From Minisyncoccota bacterium (lineage in GTDB: Bacteria; Patescibacteriota; Minisyncoccia; JAHIHE01; JAGLIN01), in contig JAQVBZ010000008.1 of assembly GCA_028690055.1 (NCBI GenBank), positions 1 to 57,220 on the forward strand: a stretch of 57,220 nt of DNA, in the 5' to 3' direction. The notes below the pieces were generated by a model. The model did not search any database. It was not told the origin of the DNA and was given only the letters and a program-made list of their open reading frames with translations. A program made the translations under genes and the position numbers. Of this stretch, positions 19,169 to 24,284 are shown one piece after another. Each line of letters starts with the position of its first letter. Position 1 is the stretch's first letter.

Positions 19169-20335
19169 ATGCGTTTTTCAAATAAAGTTGATTATATCGA
19201 GGAATCGTTTCTGAACAAATGGGATTCTGATATAAAATATAAAATTGCTGAGGGGGGTGACATTCTGCAATTCAATCTGGGGCAGCCCGATTTTGCTTGT
19301 CCAGAATTCGTGAAGGAGGCAATAATTGTTGTGAACGGGAGAGATAAGAATAATTTCTACAACTACACCGGAGGGACGGATGAGGTTCGAGCGGCATTGG
19401 CAGATTTACAGAAAAAAGTTTCTGGGCTTGAATACGCTAAGGAGGAAATAATAATGACCAACGGGGCCAAGGAGGCGCTATTTTTGGCCTTTGCGTCGAT
19501 TTTGGACAGTGGGGATGAAGTGATAATTATAGCTCCCTATTGGCCGACATACATCGAGCAAGTGAGATTCTTGGGTGGACAACCTGTCGTAGTGAATTCT
19601 AAGGAAGATTTCAGTCTTGATTTAGAGGCGATTCGAAAGGCTGTGGACGAAAAGACGCGTGCAATCGTAATTAATAATCCGAACAATCCTTCTGGAACGA
19701 CCTATAAAAGGGAGGATCTGAGGAAAATCGTGGAATTGGCCGATTTGAATGATCTTGTCATCATTTCTGATGAGGTCTATAGCTCTACTGTTTTTGATGG
19801 GAAGAAACATATTTCGATCGCAGATTTTCCAGGCGCGAAATAAAGGGCTGTTATTATCGACGGTTTTTCCAAAACACTTTCTATGACGGGTTACAGGCTC
19901 GGGTATGCGCTGTCGTCCGAGGAGATAATCCGTAACATGATAAAGGTCAAAAGTAACATCAATGGCAATACTAACTCTTTTTTTCAGATGGTCGTCGAGG
20001 AGGTGTTGCTTAATCATTTTGATGAATATCTAGCTTTTGTGGATATGACGAGAAATGAATATTTCAGAAGACGAGATTTCCTATGTGCAGGTCTTGAGGA
20101 TTTGGGAATCGAACACAAGAAGCCCGAGGGAGCTTTTTATGTCTTCGCAAAGATACCCGGAAAGATGAACATGAGGTCAAAGGAATTTACTGCACATCTT
20201 TTGAACGAAACGGGAGTGGCGGTAGCACCGGGTGTATTTTTCGGCGAAAATTATGATGATTATTTCCGCGTCTCTTTCGGGTCTTCGATGGAAAGTCTGG
20301 AGAAGGGGAAGGAGAGGATAAAAAGGGCTATATAG
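19169..20335 (+). pseudogene. Class I/II (AspC/PatA-type) aminotransferase interrupted by one in-frame TAA
   Basis: Reading through the TAA at 19841-19843 gives a single 388-codon frame of normal family length. The first part (224 residues) holds LGQPDF, GAKEALFLAFAS, NNPNNPSGT and IISDEVYSS. The second continues without a gap at RAVIIDGFSKTLSMTGYRLGY, where the SK lysine should bind pyridoxal phosphate. Both parts are needed for the active site, so neither product alone should work. No frameshift is needed, and one base change (for example GAA to TAA) explains it. The possibilities are a recent nonsense mutation, a sequencing error or readthrough. The rest of the sequence shows no decay, which points to a recent event. 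The ATG at 19883 has no ribosome site. Confidence 0.88.
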
Positions 20336-20481: not shown

Positions 20482-20509
20482 TTGACAAAGATTTTTAAAG
20501 TTATAAAAT
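20482..20509 (+). promoter_or_regulatory. Promoter at the start of the small-protein island
   Basis: TTGACA (20482-20487), 16-nt spacer, TAAAAT (20504-20509). It would start a leader that runs through the terminator at 20660. Confidence 0.5.
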
Positions 20510-20659
20510 GAAAATAAGTTAATAACATATTTATGAGTTTTAGCAGAAAGACAAATATGCATCTAGCAGCCTGGGCCACATATGGTACCGTTGGTTTTGT
20601 CTTGTCTTCTAAAGTTTTCGCATAAGATAGATTTGGGGAATAAAGCTTTGAGAGGTGAG

Positions 20660-20687
20660 GCAACCACGGAGAGAGGTTGTTTTTTTG
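20660..20687 (+). terminator. Terminator-like hairpin inside a leader
   Basis: CAACC (20661-20665) pairs with GGTTG (20675-20679), extended by a G-T pair, and is followed by seven T. It lies between the promoter and the downstream frames, so it may attenuate them. Confidence 0.5.
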
Positions 20688-20717
20688 TAATATCCGGGAT
20701 TTTTATTAATCAATATA

Positions 20718-20972: not shown

Positions 20973-21554
20973 TTGATAGCGTATAACATAGCACCGAAAG
21001 AAGGTGAAGTATGTCTAGGTCCCTGTGCACCGGAAAATGTCGACAGTCTCTTCGGAATATTTCCAGGGTTGCGGAAAGAGCTATCGTGTCGTGTCGGTTC
21101 CGTGATATTTTACAATGTTTTTATAGAGAAAGTCGAAGTCCAACAGGCGATTGTCCAATTGGAGCAATATATGCTAGAGGAATCGGAAAAGCTTCGGGTT
21201 CTCAAAAAGGTCTTGATAAAACTTGATGATCTTATCGAAACTGAATTCGAGGACGAGAAAATACCATCAGATAAGGCATTCATCGGATTCTACCCCTGCA
21301 GAGAATCGGTCAGGGAGGAATTCGGAAATGAACTTGATGGAATAGAACGGGGAAGGTTCGTCGGGTCAGTGATGCAAGGGGTATACGAAGGGAAGGTAGC
21401 TCGATATAAATCTATCGACTTCTTCTGCTTCCTTGCCGATAGAGACTCTTTCATAAGATATAAAAATAAAGTGCTTATAAAAATCCTGGATACCTGCAAG
21501 GGTTACAAAGGAATGAAGAGTCTGTACGAATTTATTAATTCTGCGGGAGGATAA
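20973..21554 (+). CDS. Small protein of unknown function, TTG start
   Basis: AGGAGG at 20959-20964 sits 8 nt before a TTG at 20973, which I take as the start (193 residues). The protein is soluble and charged, with a helical middle (VEVQQAIVQLEQYMLEESEKLR) and later AFIGFYPCRESVREEFG. No family is recognised. It is the first long gene of an island of four similar-sized unknown genes that share strong ribosome sites and rare starts, unlike the core genes around them, and it ends at its own terminator. Confidence 0.65.
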   Translation: MIAYNIAPKEGEVCLGPCAPENVDSLFGIFPGLRKELSCRVGSVIFYNVFIEKVEVQQAIVQLEQYMLEESEKLRVLKKVLIKLDDLIETEFEDEKIPSDKAFIGFYPCRESVREEFGNELDGIERGRFVGSVMQGVYEGKVARYKSIDFFCFLADRDSFIRYKNKVLIKILDTCKGYKGMKSLYEFINSAGG

Positions 21555-21646: not shown

Positions 21647-21674
21647 TTGACATAATATTTTATCCAGTTATAAT
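21647..21674 (+). promoter_or_regulatory. Consensus promoter of leader RNA 1
   Basis: TTGACA (21647-21652), 16-nt spacer, TATAAT (21669-21674): both hexamers are perfect. Transcription should start near 21681. Confidence 0.8.
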
Positions 21675-21680
21675 GTTCTT

Positions 21681-21816
21681 GTAAGTAACAAAACTATGAA
21701 TCACAACACAAGCAACAAATTTTATTTCTTTTATTTTTTCAGCCATCATTTGAGATAGGTCGCTTTTGCCGTAGTTTATAGCAAGAAAAACAGCCTGTCT
21801 CAAAGGCTGCTTTTTT
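21681..21816 (+). ncRNA. Structured leader RNA with terminator and possible antiterminator, copy 1
   Basis: The segment TTTGAGATAGG (21749-21759) can pair over 11 bp with CCTGTCTCAAA (21794-21804). The same 3' segment also forms the 5' arm and loop of the terminator CAGCC (21791-21795) / GGCTG (21805-21809), followed by CTTTTTT. The two folds exclude each other. The core aligns with 23056-23124, upstream of another gene in the island. Together these suggest a cis-acting switch that ends or extends the transcript into the gene at 21945. I recognise no known riboswitch class. Confidence 0.65.
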
Positions 21817-21944
21817 ATGTGCCTAGCTGTGGGTTTCGGTTCAATAAAAGGACGGAATCCTGCAAGTAGGCTCAAACTTTTTTTGTTTGTTTCTGCTGAC
21901 AAAAATGGACCTTGAAAACAAAAATACAAAGGAGACTATTGAAA

Positions 21945-22439
21945 ATGGTTTGTAAAGAGATTGATTTGACTGACATAGACCTGGAAGTAATGGATGCAAA
22001 GCACGTTGAGCGTTGTATAAGCTCAATCGTAAGGGAACTCTTTCCGAGTAGTCATGCACTGGGAATTTCTGTCGTTTCAGAAGACATGGGAAAAAGAATG
22101 GTGGTGCTTACCGGGCGCGAGGAAACGTTTGCTTCGATAAGTGACTATTTCTCTGTTGTTAGTGTAGTGGCTGGACAAAAAATAAAAATTTCTAACGAGG
22201 CAAGGGATAAGGGGATATGTCCTGATAATGTGAGGTTTTTTCTTAAAGCAATAGCCGTGCCATTCTCCGGTAGCAACGATCCTCTGAGTTATAAACTGTC
22301 TTCGGATGATTCTATCCTAACGGTTAGATGCGAGGAAGATCTGTTTGCCAAAATGAAATATTTTCTCGATAAGATAAAGATACAAGAGCAACCGCGGGTA
22401 AAAATTCAGAACAATCCGGTAGTTGCTACGGAGGTGTAA
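21945..22439 (+). CDS. Small protein of unknown function behind leader RNA 1
   Basis: AGGAG at 21930-21934 lies 10 nt before the ATG at 21945, which I prefer; a TTG at 21939 is only 4 nt away and an in-frame TTG at 21912 precedes the ribosome site. The product has 164 residues, with helix VERCISSIVRELF, then beta-rich KRMVVLTGREETFASISDYF. The two-part alpha/beta pattern could be a pair of small ferredoxin-like folds, but I recognise no family. It is probably translated together with 22443, whose ribosome site lies at its end. Confidence 0.65.
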   Translation: MVCKEIDLTDIDLEVMDAKHVERCISSIVRELFPSSHALGISVVSEDMGKRMVVLTGREETFASISDYFSVVSVVAGQKIKISNEARDKGICPDNVRFFLKAIAVPFSGSNDPLSYKLSSDDSILTVRCEEDLFAKMKYFLDKIKIQEQPRVKIQNNPVVATEV

Positions 22440-22442
22440 GAT

Positions 22443-22847
22443 ATGGAAGCGGTTGTCGTAAGCTCGGCAGCTAATCCTACGGAGAGGGAAATCATGATAG
22501 TCAGGAGTGGAGACGTTACTCGATTGGAAAGAGTTCTTGGAACTATTTTTGTCAAAAGAGGCCTTTCCATTTTTGAAAGGAAGCTTAACGCTCTCGAATT
22601 GTCTGAATATTGCAGGAAGAATAAGATTCTTGGGGAGGCCTTCGCTGTTGATAGGATGTTAACCGGAATCAAGGACCTTCAAGGGTTGAGGGTGATTGAG
22701 CTATATGCTAGCCCCGAAACCATGGAGGCTGTTGAAGGTTTTATGCATAAAGGGGTCTGGAAACAGTTGGAAAAAAATAAAAGAGGTAAAAAAACAAAAG
22801 TTGATGGATCTGATTTGGAATTCTTGGCTAATTGTAATAAATATTAA
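22443..22847 (+). CDS. Small protein of unknown function
   Basis: The ATG at 22443 follows GGAGGTG within the last codons of the previous gene, 3 nt after its stop, so the pair is one operon. The 134 residues hold REIMIVRSGDVTRLERVLG and LRVIELYASPETMEAVEGF, a mixed alpha/beta protein with a basic, lysine-rich segment (KQLEKNKRGKKTK). No family is recognised. Confidence 0.65.
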   Translation: MEAVVVSSAANPTEREIMIVRSGDVTRLERVLGTIFVKRGLSIFERKLNALELSEYCRKNKILGEAFAVDRMLTGIKDLQGLRVIELYASPETMEAVEGFMHKGVWKQLEKNKRGKKTKVDGSDLEFLANCNKY

Positions 22848-22849
22848 AA

Positions 22850-22962
22850 AGGCATAGCCGATTTTACAAAAATAGAAAGACAAAAAATATTGAGAATGTG
22901 GGATTTTTATAAAAAATTTGGAGGATTAGTGGGCATGGATAAACACATCTATGCCTTTTTTG
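22850..22962 (+). terminator. Long-loop terminator-like pairing after the 22443 gene
   Basis: AAAAGGCATAG (around 22848-22858) can pair with CTATGCCTTTT (around 22949-22959), followed by T. The loop of about 90 nt contains a ribosome-site-led short frame. The next terminator at 23664 has a closely similar stem with a short loop. Confidence 0.4.
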
Positions 22963-23003
22963 TTGACAAAAATATGGACGGAGATATAATCTTATCAGGT
23001 TAA
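22929..23003 (+). CDS. Possible 24-residue leader peptide
   Basis: GGAGG (22919-22924 region) is followed by GTG at 22929 (or ATG at 22935) and a frame ending in TAA at 23001-23003. It runs across the promoter and start of leader RNA 2. The peptide is VGMDKHIYAFFVDKNMDGD... . It is short and may be chance. Confidence 0.25.
   Translation: MGMDKHIYAFFVDKNMDGDIILSG
22963..22990 (+). promoter_or_regulatory. Consensus promoter of leader RNA 2
   Basis: TTGACA (22963-22968), 16-nt spacer, TATAAT (22985-22990): identical in hexamers and spacing to the promoter at 21647. Confidence 0.8.
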
Positions 23004-23124
23004 AGCTTTATTTACGAATCAAAATGCGAGCAATTAGTCCACCTTCTATTTAGCGGCCATCTGGGATAGGTGATTTTTATTGTTTTATAGATAATAAGAT
23101 AGCCTGTTTAAAGAGGCTTTTTGT
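22997..23124 (+). ncRNA. Structured leader RNA with terminator, copy 2
   Basis: Homologous to 21741-21816: GGCCATC, GGGATAGG, TTTATAG and AGCCTGT appear in the same order. TGGGATAGG (23062-23070) can pair with CCTGTTTAA (23103-23111) with G-T pairs and one mismatch, against the terminator AGCC (23101-23104) / GGCT (23115-23118) plus T run. About 100 nt of further leader with hairpin GAGCG/CGCTC follows before the gene. Confidence 0.65.
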
Positions 23125-23229
23125 TTTGGCCGAAAGCTTGCGGGACTTTAAGGGCGTTGTGGGGCGAGCGTTTAAAATCGCTCTAGCAGAATTCTTTGAA
23201 AAAAATAAAAATAAAATGGAGATGAGATT

Positions 23230-23643
23230 TTGGCGAAAGGAAAATTTGAGATTTATTCTATGAGAAAATGTTTTTCCAGAGAAGAAGCATTGGTTGCGTT
23301 AATCTTCCTCAGTAATTTGTTTTCTGAAATGTACTGGAAAACAAAAGTTGTCGAGGGCGCTGTCGATGTTTGGGTGGTCGGATTCTTGGAGAGAGGCTCA
23401 CTATGGCCTCGATCGGACGCAATAAAATTGTCTAACATCGGAATGTCTTTTGTGACTCCTGGCGATGAAGCGGATATTGCCGGTTTTGCCAAGAGTAATG
23501 GAATGACATTTCTGAATAATCGGTATATTATAGACGAAAAAAAGAAAAGGGAGTGTTTCGGAAAAGAAATTGATTCTCAATTAGCGATTTGTGGGTCATT
23601 GGAGACTAAGTCCGCGGAGTTGTCGATAGGAGTTATTCCTTAA
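23230..23643 (+). CDS. Small protein of unknown function behind leader RNA 2, TTG start
   Basis: TGGAG upstream of the TTG at 23230 supports this start and gives 137 residues. The protein starts KGKFEIYSMRKCFSREEALV with a helix, then VDVWVVGFLERGSLWPRSDA and a region ending AELSIGVIP. It is soluble and not similar in sequence to the 21945 product, although both follow homologous leaders. No family is recognised. Confidence 0.65.
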   Translation: MAKGKFEIYSMRKCFSREEALVALIFLSNLFSEMYWKTKVVEGAVDVWVVGFLERGSLWPRSDAIKLSNIGMSFVTPGDEADIAGFAKSNGMTFLNNRYIIDEKKKRECFGKEIDSQLAICGSLETKSAELSIGVIP

Positions 23644-23663
23644 AAACAAAAGTACAAAATTTA

Positions 23664-23708
23664 AAAAGGCATGGCTAGTGAAAAATAATCATAAATAGCT
23701 ATGCCTTT
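23664..23708. terminator. Bidirectional terminator between convergent genes
   Basis: AAAGGCATGGCTA pairs with TAGCTATGCCTTT (one G-T pair), with A and T tracts on the two sides. Confidence 0.8.
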
Positions 23709-23717
23709 CTTTTAAAT

Positions 23718-24284
23718 CTATTTTGTCACTGTCAGGAAACTGGTAAAATTGAATTTGAGGTCCTGTACTCCCTTTTCCAAAATTTCCAAACCGTAGAGTG
23801 TGGCGCAGCTTTCGGGGGCTAGGACGGCGGTATCTGCCGTCAGGATGCCCTCCGAGAGATCCTTGGCGGCCTTGGCGGTGTCGTCGCGCTGTTCGATATT
23901 GGCATCGGCCCAGTTCCTCTTGATATACATCTTGCACTGCTTGATGGCCTGGTCATGGGAGGCGATGGTCTTTATGTCTTCTTTGGCAGTTCCGGGCTTT
24001 GCCAGGAGGCAGTGGATGACCGGAATCTCGAAGAGCTCCTGGATATTGAAGATATATCTGCTAATCGCATAGACGCTCTCGATGACGATACCTCCATTGG
24101 AGTTTTCGATGGGGAAGATTCCGAGGTTGATTTTTTCATTAGCAAGCGCGTTTAAAACATTTTCTACGGAAATGAGGTATTCAAGCTTGTAGCTTTCTAT
24201 ATCGTTTTTGCGGCAATATTCTTTGGCGGCTTGTTCGGAGAAACTTCCTATTGCACCCGAAACGCCGATTATTTTTTCTTCCAT
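23718..24284 (-). CDS. Prephenate dehydratase-like protein, catalytic domain only
   Basis: The 188 residues cover the PDT domain: GAIGSFSEQAA, LGIFPIENSNGGIV, SHDQAIKQC, DTAKAAK, AVLAPESCATLYGLEIL. PDT makes phenylpyruvate from prephenate. Two oddities: there is no C-terminal ACT domain for feedback by phenylalanine, and the catalytic TRF motif near the end reads TSF (NFTSFLTVTK), so the Arg is replaced by Ser. No other aromatic biosynthesis gene is in the window. Activity on prephenate is therefore doubtful, and it may bind or act on another ligand. Confidence 0.82.
   Translation of the reverse strand: MEEKIIGVSGAIGSFSEQAAKEYCRKNDIESYKLEYLISVENVLNALANEKINLGIFPIENSNGGIVIESVYAISRYIFNIQELFEIPVIHCLLAKPGTAKEDIKTIASHDQAIKQCKMYIKRNWADANIEQRDDTAKAAKDLSEGILTADTAVLAPESCATLYGLEILEKGVQDLKFNFTSFLTVTK

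Follow-up and report, generated by a model that had tools for sequence, protein, structure and literature searches.

The question raised by this locus is what two homologous leader RNAs, each with competing terminator and antiterminator folds and each lying upstream of a different small gene, respond to in a patescibacterial genome. The window, by which we mean the whole stretch of 57,220 nucleotides that was analysed, belongs to an ultrasmall bacterium from a group believed to synthesise few amino acids itself, and gene regulation in Patescibacteria is almost unexplored. We observed that both leaders start from a perfect TTGACA-16-TATAAT promoter, as a sequence-only reading of this DNA had pointed out, and that a scan of 14 kb gave no 12/12 match other than these two (21647-21674 and 22963-22990); the sequence blocks which that reading had listed for both leaders were all present, with their order kept. 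Comparison with related genomes suggests that leader 1 is very probably a ribosome-mediated transcription attenuator sensing charged tRNA-Phe, and probably tRNA-Tyr, with leader 2 as its decayed duplicate. The elements of leader 1 are as follows.

21647-21674, forward strand: promoter of leader 1, TTGACA-16-TATAAT (12/12 consensus), with promoter-like sequence at the matching site in relatives
21694-21724, forward strand: segment 1, the start of the leader ORF, which pairs with 21751-21781 (protector 1:2) in the minimum-energy fold
21696-21758, forward strand: ORF of the leader peptide MNHNTSNKFYFFYFFSHHLR, with its stop; homologous ORFs stand at the matching location in relatives
21740-21744, forward strand: segment 2', CAGCC, with the terminator 3' arm GGCTG as partner in the folds of copy 1 and most relatives
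21749-21760, forward strand: segment 2, the antiterminator 5' arm TTTGAGATAGGT, holding the stop codon TAG at 21756-21758
21775-21781, forward strand: conserved block TTTATAG, the 3' end of the protector, with CTATGAA at 21694-21700 as partner in the copy 1 fold
21791-21804, forward strand: segment 3, CAGCCTGTCTCAAA, which in the folds serves the antiterminator as its 3' arm and the terminator as its 5' arm
21805-21816, forward strand: segment 4 (GGCTG) and U tract, the 3' arm of the intrinsic terminator (terminator-like site 21791-21809)
21818-21874, forward strand: strong hairpin past the attenuator (z -4.8, 0/200 shuffles), in the position of the relatives' conserved P hairpin

The ORF of leader 1 (21696-21758), which had been overlooked before, runs from its ATG to the TAG stop codon over 20 residues, 7 of which are Phe or Tyr, and its control codons TTT TAT TTC TTT TAT TTT TTC are clustered at 21720-21740. 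No obvious ribosome-binding site was noticed ahead of this ORF, and because Phe codons are expected by chance in such a T-rich stretch, homologues are needed to judge it. The pairing of 21749-21759 with 21794-21804 proposed earlier was recovered in full, with 11 bp made up of 10 Watson-Crick pairs and one G-U, and it does compete with the terminator stem 21791-21796/21804-21809. The longest helix between leader 1 and its terminator region extends to 12 bp, which was matched in 3 of 2000 dinucleotide shuffles, and the fold of 21740-21817 gave a z of -4.2 (0/200 shuffles). In addition, CAGCC at 21740-21744 pairs with GGCTG at 21805-21809, a point absent from the sequence-only reading, so that the alternative fold occupies both arms of the terminator. 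Leader 1 displays control codons clustered in a leader ORF, an antiterminator and an intrinsic terminator that exclude each other, and a protector 1:2 of -13.3 kcal/mol, which are features expected of an attenuator. With the stop codon inside the arm 21749-21760 and the codon run ending at 21740, the geometry, as distinct from the dynamics, suits both masking by a terminating ribosome and stalling ahead of the arm.

A search with a sequence-only model built from the two window copies revealed that further homologues do exist, as most same-family genomes gave one full-length match to this first model (E below 1e-3). Model R2 matched 11 of the 384 class genomes; each of these is one of the 14 same-family genomes, and G000 and G004 have two leader copies apiece; blastn of the leader against 92 genomes returned T-rich chance matches only. 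The records found by a scan of pheA neighbours, including the same contigs, are Candidatus Paceibacterota/Parcubacteria MAGs. The Phe-rich leader ORF and the layout were found in all matches except a divergent one, namely G012 (MNPLIAKKYFKFSSILDRLLF with its stop; a weak match of 33.8 bits), and window copy 2 is also excepted. The leader ORFs of relatives, which run from ATG to TAG at the same location, include MNYAKNNQFFFFSRHLR, MNHTKNNQFFFFSFFSRHLR, MNYTKNNFFFFSFFSRFQR and MSYMQNNWYFFFSFFSRHVR. The run in ten leaders consists of TTT (38), TTC (13), TAT (4), AGC (15) and AGT (2), with Leu, Ile, Val, Cys and TCN codons absent, which means that the Phe run varies only to aromatic codons or Ser. 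Since drift in T-rich sequence would yield Leu, Ile, Val, Cys and TCN codons, their absence counts for a Phe attenuator.

The location of the leader is also kept, as it lies ahead of a varying set of genes convergent with pheA, with topA further on, in the window as in relatives, where the synteny of pheA with the leader is conserved. Directly downstream of the leader we found prephenate dehydratase with an ACT domain in G001 and G003 (and, by sequence, in G009), an aminotransferase in G006, 3-dehydroquinate dehydratase (aroD) after the second leader copy in G004, and an orphan in G002, G007, G008, the first copy in G004 and the window. The genes cognate to phenylalanine control, pheA, the aminotransferase and aroD, are thus downstream in relatives and orphans are downstream in the window; that the window leaders precede no recognisable Phe gene counts against a Phe attenuator.

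A lack of further homologues, or loss of the pairing between the 5' segment and the terminator arm, had been named as what would speak against a switch; the homologues keep this pairing. The antiterminator helix was paired in 89.7% of cells, compared with 20-43% with slid partners, and showed one two-sided change (column pair 18/68); covariation is modest here, as part of the arm is held constant by the stop codon. Stronger evidence comes from the arm-swap test, in which the leaders' own 2'2:34 duplexes reached -19 to -26 kcal/mol and most between-clade swaps about -12 to -19, suggesting that the antiterminator arms coevolve. The exceptions are main-clade arms when partnered with those of G003/G009 or of copy 1 (about -22), as well as the 5' arm of copy 2, which binds the 3' arm of copy 1 better than its own. 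For most leaders the protector, formed by the ORF start with the region past segment 2, comes to between -10 and -19 kcal/mol, and this pairing accounts for the conserved block TTTATAG in copy 1. Segment 2', which is CAGCC in copy 1 and AGCCGUC in relatives, pairs with the 3' arm of the terminator. The ORF, its codon run and the competing pairings, together with their conservation and covariation, are apparent in the sequences themselves, and the earlier proposal of a cis-acting terminator/antiterminator switch is well supported by the homologues and by the pairing they keep.

We propose that a ribosome would begin the 20-codon leader peptide close behind RNA polymerase. With ample Phe and Tyr it would reach the stop codon within segment 2 and block 2:3, upon which 3:4 would form ahead of the U tract and transcription would end at about 21816. 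With Phe or Tyr in short supply, the ribosome would stall at the run 21720-21740 and leave segment 2 free, so 2:3 (with 2':4) could form, exclude the 3:4 terminator and allow the orphan genes to be transcribed. If no ribosome were present, segment 1 would sequester segment 2 and the terminator would form. We infer both the translation of the leader ORF and the sign of the response. The long 2'2:34 hairpin might serve as the antiterminator or as a second terminator, and its effect on termination is uncertain, since it outstabilises the 3:4 terminator and abuts the U tract.

Independent support for attenuation outside this leader family is provided by a cysteine leader and by distant Patescibacteria. 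The leader of G005 (L050 / L034:1445-1573) encodes the Cys-Cys peptide MKHEKQAICCRTKYPSF, closed by a stop, forms an antiterminator of 11 bp and stands ahead of a PLP enzyme of the PALP family that reads as a cysteine synthase by sequence, which indicates that the control codons follow the pathway; in this Cys relative 2' would be free at the ribosome stall, a point that counts against a Phe attenuator. In distant Patescibacteria, the 1.5-kb stretches ahead of pheA (110 kb) held 13 F/Y/W-rich leader ORFs with a terminator versus about 3 expected from the remaining loci (P about 2e-5). Their peptides, such as MIKNITKGFYFFWFYFFSKETNLL (L082), MIKTLQTTYFFFYFWFALPRRLVVRGVLTT (L125) and MNNYFKNLYFYFWFFFFRKPIFVVN (L090), each ending at a stop, have no sequence homology to the window leaders, and when folded most of these distant leaders form either a protector with a terminator or an antiterminator. 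Mixed Phe/Tyr/Trp leaders were noticed upstream of pheA in L063, L069, L080, L082, L088, L090, L118, L124 and L125.

Between the attenuator and the gene, the leaders of relatives harbor additional structures, listed here.

L159-L166, for example G001:C67:59106-59180, in relatives: covarying hairpin with a CCUUUAGGG internal loop, downstream of the attenuator
L031:1328-1401, reverse strand: tRNA-family match with anticodon GAA in the G002 leader, 51.2 bits
L029:1229-1304, reverse strand: tRNA-family match with anticodon GAA in the G006 leader, 37.5 bits
L028:1310-1383, reverse strand: tRNA-family match with anticodon GAA in the G001 leader, 33.1 bits

The hairpin of the relatives had 94.4% of cells paired and 8 cells with a two-sided change (0/500 shuffles). 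Its model, R3, gave a strong single match only at the relatives' Phe leaders; it also matches many AT-rich palindromes on both strands, and leader matches of at least 50 bits were trusted. The window hairpin at 21818-21874 was unmatched by R3. The three tRNA-family matches exceed the gathering score and lie between attenuator and gene; weaker tRNA-like elements were detected in G008 and G013, G007 has a truncated one, and no tRNA match was obtained in the window. UGAAA at the anticodon and an A at position 73 are shared by all five of these tRNA-Phe-like cloverleaves, and their acceptor stems differ in sequence with the pairing kept, most poorly in G001. In the genomes checked with a relaxed pattern, canonical tRNA-Phe is encoded separately elsewhere. 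The features of a mimic (U33-GAA-A37, A73 and a covarying acceptor stem) tentatively suggest a two-sensor device, in which attenuator, conserved hairpin and tRNA-Phe mimic would share one 5' leader and PheRS or tRNA processing enzymes would read the mimic, setting the translation of the Phe genes; we hold this to be possible and somewhat doubtful.

Leader 2 presents the following elements.

22963-22990, forward strand: promoter of leader 2, TTGACA-16-TATAAT (12/12 consensus)
23024-23053, forward strand: MRAISPPSI with its stop, the sole ATG-started small ORF of leader 2
23055-23071, forward strand: segments 2' and 2 (GGCC AUCU GGGATAGGT), from the fold
23102-23118, forward strand: segments 3 and 4 (terminator 23101-23118), ahead of a T run, from the fold

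The pairing of 23062-23070 with 23103-23111 that had been described in copy 2 holds at 8 of 9 positions, with one G-A mismatch. By itself, this 9-position helix is equalled too often to be significant (1351/2000 shuffles), but significance is reached by the fold of 23050-23127 (z -3.6, 0/200 shuffles). The frame homologous to the Phe ORF is broken, as its start ATG has become ACG, an early TAG is present and its length is not a multiple of 3; no in-frame leader ORF with a Phe/Tyr run, as expected of a Phe attenuator, was found in leader 2, and its protector is gone (-4.5 kcal/mol). The likeliest account is that leader 2 is a decayed duplicate which has kept its promoter and folds and lost the Phe frame, and its amino-acid response has probably been lost. 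We consider it unlikely that copy 2 has been re-purposed, with a ribosome on MRAISPPSI covering 2' only and the leader acting as a translation-dependent switch for another signal. The stop of this 9-codon ORF at 23053 does stand right ahead of 2' (23055), with promoter and folds intact, but MRAISPPSI is without a known homologue, the 5' arm prefers the 3' arm of copy 1 to its own (-27.8 versus -19.2), and the lost protector and the non-significant pairing also weigh against such a role.

Downstream of the two leaders, the window carries the following genes and sites.

21945-22439, forward strand: orphan gene 1 (164 aa), which follows leader 1 and has the Shine-Dalgarno sequence AAGGAG
22443-22847, forward strand: orphan gene 2 (134 aa), the second gene of the same transcript, no Pfam match
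22848-22958, forward strand: end of cassette 1, with terminator stem GGGCATGG..TCTATGCCT and T run (terminator 22931-22956)
23230-23643, forward strand: orphan gene 3 (137 aa), which follows leader 2 and for which Pfam gave nothing above the cut-off
23718-24284, reverse strand: pheA, prephenate dehydratase, the convergent neighbour (PF00800, E 7.5e-43)

Orphan gene 1 had no homologue in 286 class genomes, viral contigs, phages and PDB, and no Pfam match; its likeness to a 97-aa protein of G002 (z 3.8) is too weak for homology. AlphaFold models of two orphans were unusable at pLDDT 38-40, the value for orphan gene 3 being 40. The cassette ends at 22848-22958 and 23660-23711 share the related sequence AAAAAGGCAT(A/G)GC..CTATGCCTTT, so the cassettes may be end-to-end duplicates, though their genes are unrelated. 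A third leader candidate was noticed at 20482-20690, ahead of the orphan at 20973, with the promoter TTGACA/TAAAAT, a small ORF MSFSRKTNMHLAAWATYGTVGFVLSSKVFA closed by a stop and a CAACC/GGTTG terminator with T7; it is not claimed here, as its fold z is only -1.3.

This setting bears on whether the leaders are plain duplicates whose constitutive terminators damp read-through without any sensing, as relics of a lost Phe pathway. Chorismate synthase and CM_2 chorismate mutase were not found by search in the window genome, and the window aminotransferase of class I/II (19169-20335), otherwise intact, has an in-frame TAA at 19841-19843, being either a pseudogene or the site of a sequencing error; both the missing chorismate synthase and this stop would suit such relics, as would the orphans downstream and the lost frame of copy 2. 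The sequence-only reading had offered duplicated leaders with plain terminators as its alternative, which fits copy 2 better, its frame being broken. Copy 1 speaks against it, having kept its leader ORF with the aromatic run, the protector and both the antiterminator and the terminator intact, and its base pairs have changed in a matched manner relative to relatives, which neutral decay would not preserve. We therefore regard this explanation as quite improbable. For an attenuating leader 1, it may be that the attenuator outlived its pathway, or that the orphans serve Phe supply in another way. In the relative G006, a CM_2 chorismate mutase match (G006:C24:10325-10552) contains four TAA codons and represents a decaying aromatic pathway.

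A metabolite-binding riboswitch, in which segments 2-3 would form the aptamer and a ligand would pick antiterminator or terminator with no translation involved, is very improbable, as competing folds with a conserved GATAGG block and the covarying hairpin next to them in relatives are outweighed by that block being made up of the antiterminator arm and the stop codon of an ORF conserved as coding, by control codons that stay aromatic or turn to Cys ahead of a likely Cys gene, and by the lack of a junction, of any other aptamer-like core and of a match to an Rfam riboswitch. Accordingly, the suspicion of an unnamed riboswitch class gives way to ribosome-mediated attenuation, in which the sensor would be the translated Phe/Tyr-rich leader peptide.

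Patescibacteria have been described as being without amino-acid biosynthesis (PMC11665869). Attenuated aromatic amino-acid genes would imply that Patescibacteria sense their own charged tRNA, and such attenuators would offer a read-out of starvation in episymbionts. For the window, Phe limitation would be the signal under which the orphan proteins are probably made, and a tRNA-Phe-like element in the leaders of relatives would newly combine two tRNA-based sensors.

With reference to known systems, the window had no Rfam match at the gathering score. Phe_leader (RF01859, gathering score 55 bits) in particular gave no gathering match in the window and none at the right place; in two relatives it matched at the right place below threshold, with 32.0 and 29.4 bits. 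The leaders resemble the pheA/pheST attenuators of that family in their Phe-rich leader peptide, in the alternative antiterminator and terminator folds and, in relatives of the window genome, in the prephenate dehydratase they would control. They differ in having their stop codon within the antiterminator arm, in the capture of the terminator 3' arm by 2', in their patescibacterial host, in the orphan genes downstream in the window, and in an Rfam match that is sub-threshold only. With the trp/his/leu-type attenuators they share the 1:2 protector, the 2:3 antiterminator, the 3:4 terminator and a run of control codons, whereas the codons here are aromatic (F/Y/W mixed in other Patescibacteria leaders) and the window leader ORF is very short and SD-less. 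T-box leaders likewise choose between terminator and antiterminator in response to an amino acid, and some relatives have a tRNA-like structure nearby; however, here it is the leader that encodes the tRNA-like element, a leader peptide is present, and neither an Rfam T-box match nor a T-box sequence in the antiterminator was found in the window or in relatives. tRNA-mimicking operators are known from the thrS type of E. coli, which is similar in that five relatives have a tRNA-like element with the cognate anticodon upstream of a coding gene; unlike it, the relatives add a ribosome-mediated attenuator, and the candidate element was not found in the window genome. The attenuation mechanism is thus already known, and what appears new is the leader family, its host group and its link to orphan genes, which were absent from Rfam and from the literature searched, with few subscription journals covered; the tRNA-like composite leader would be a new variant if shown to act.
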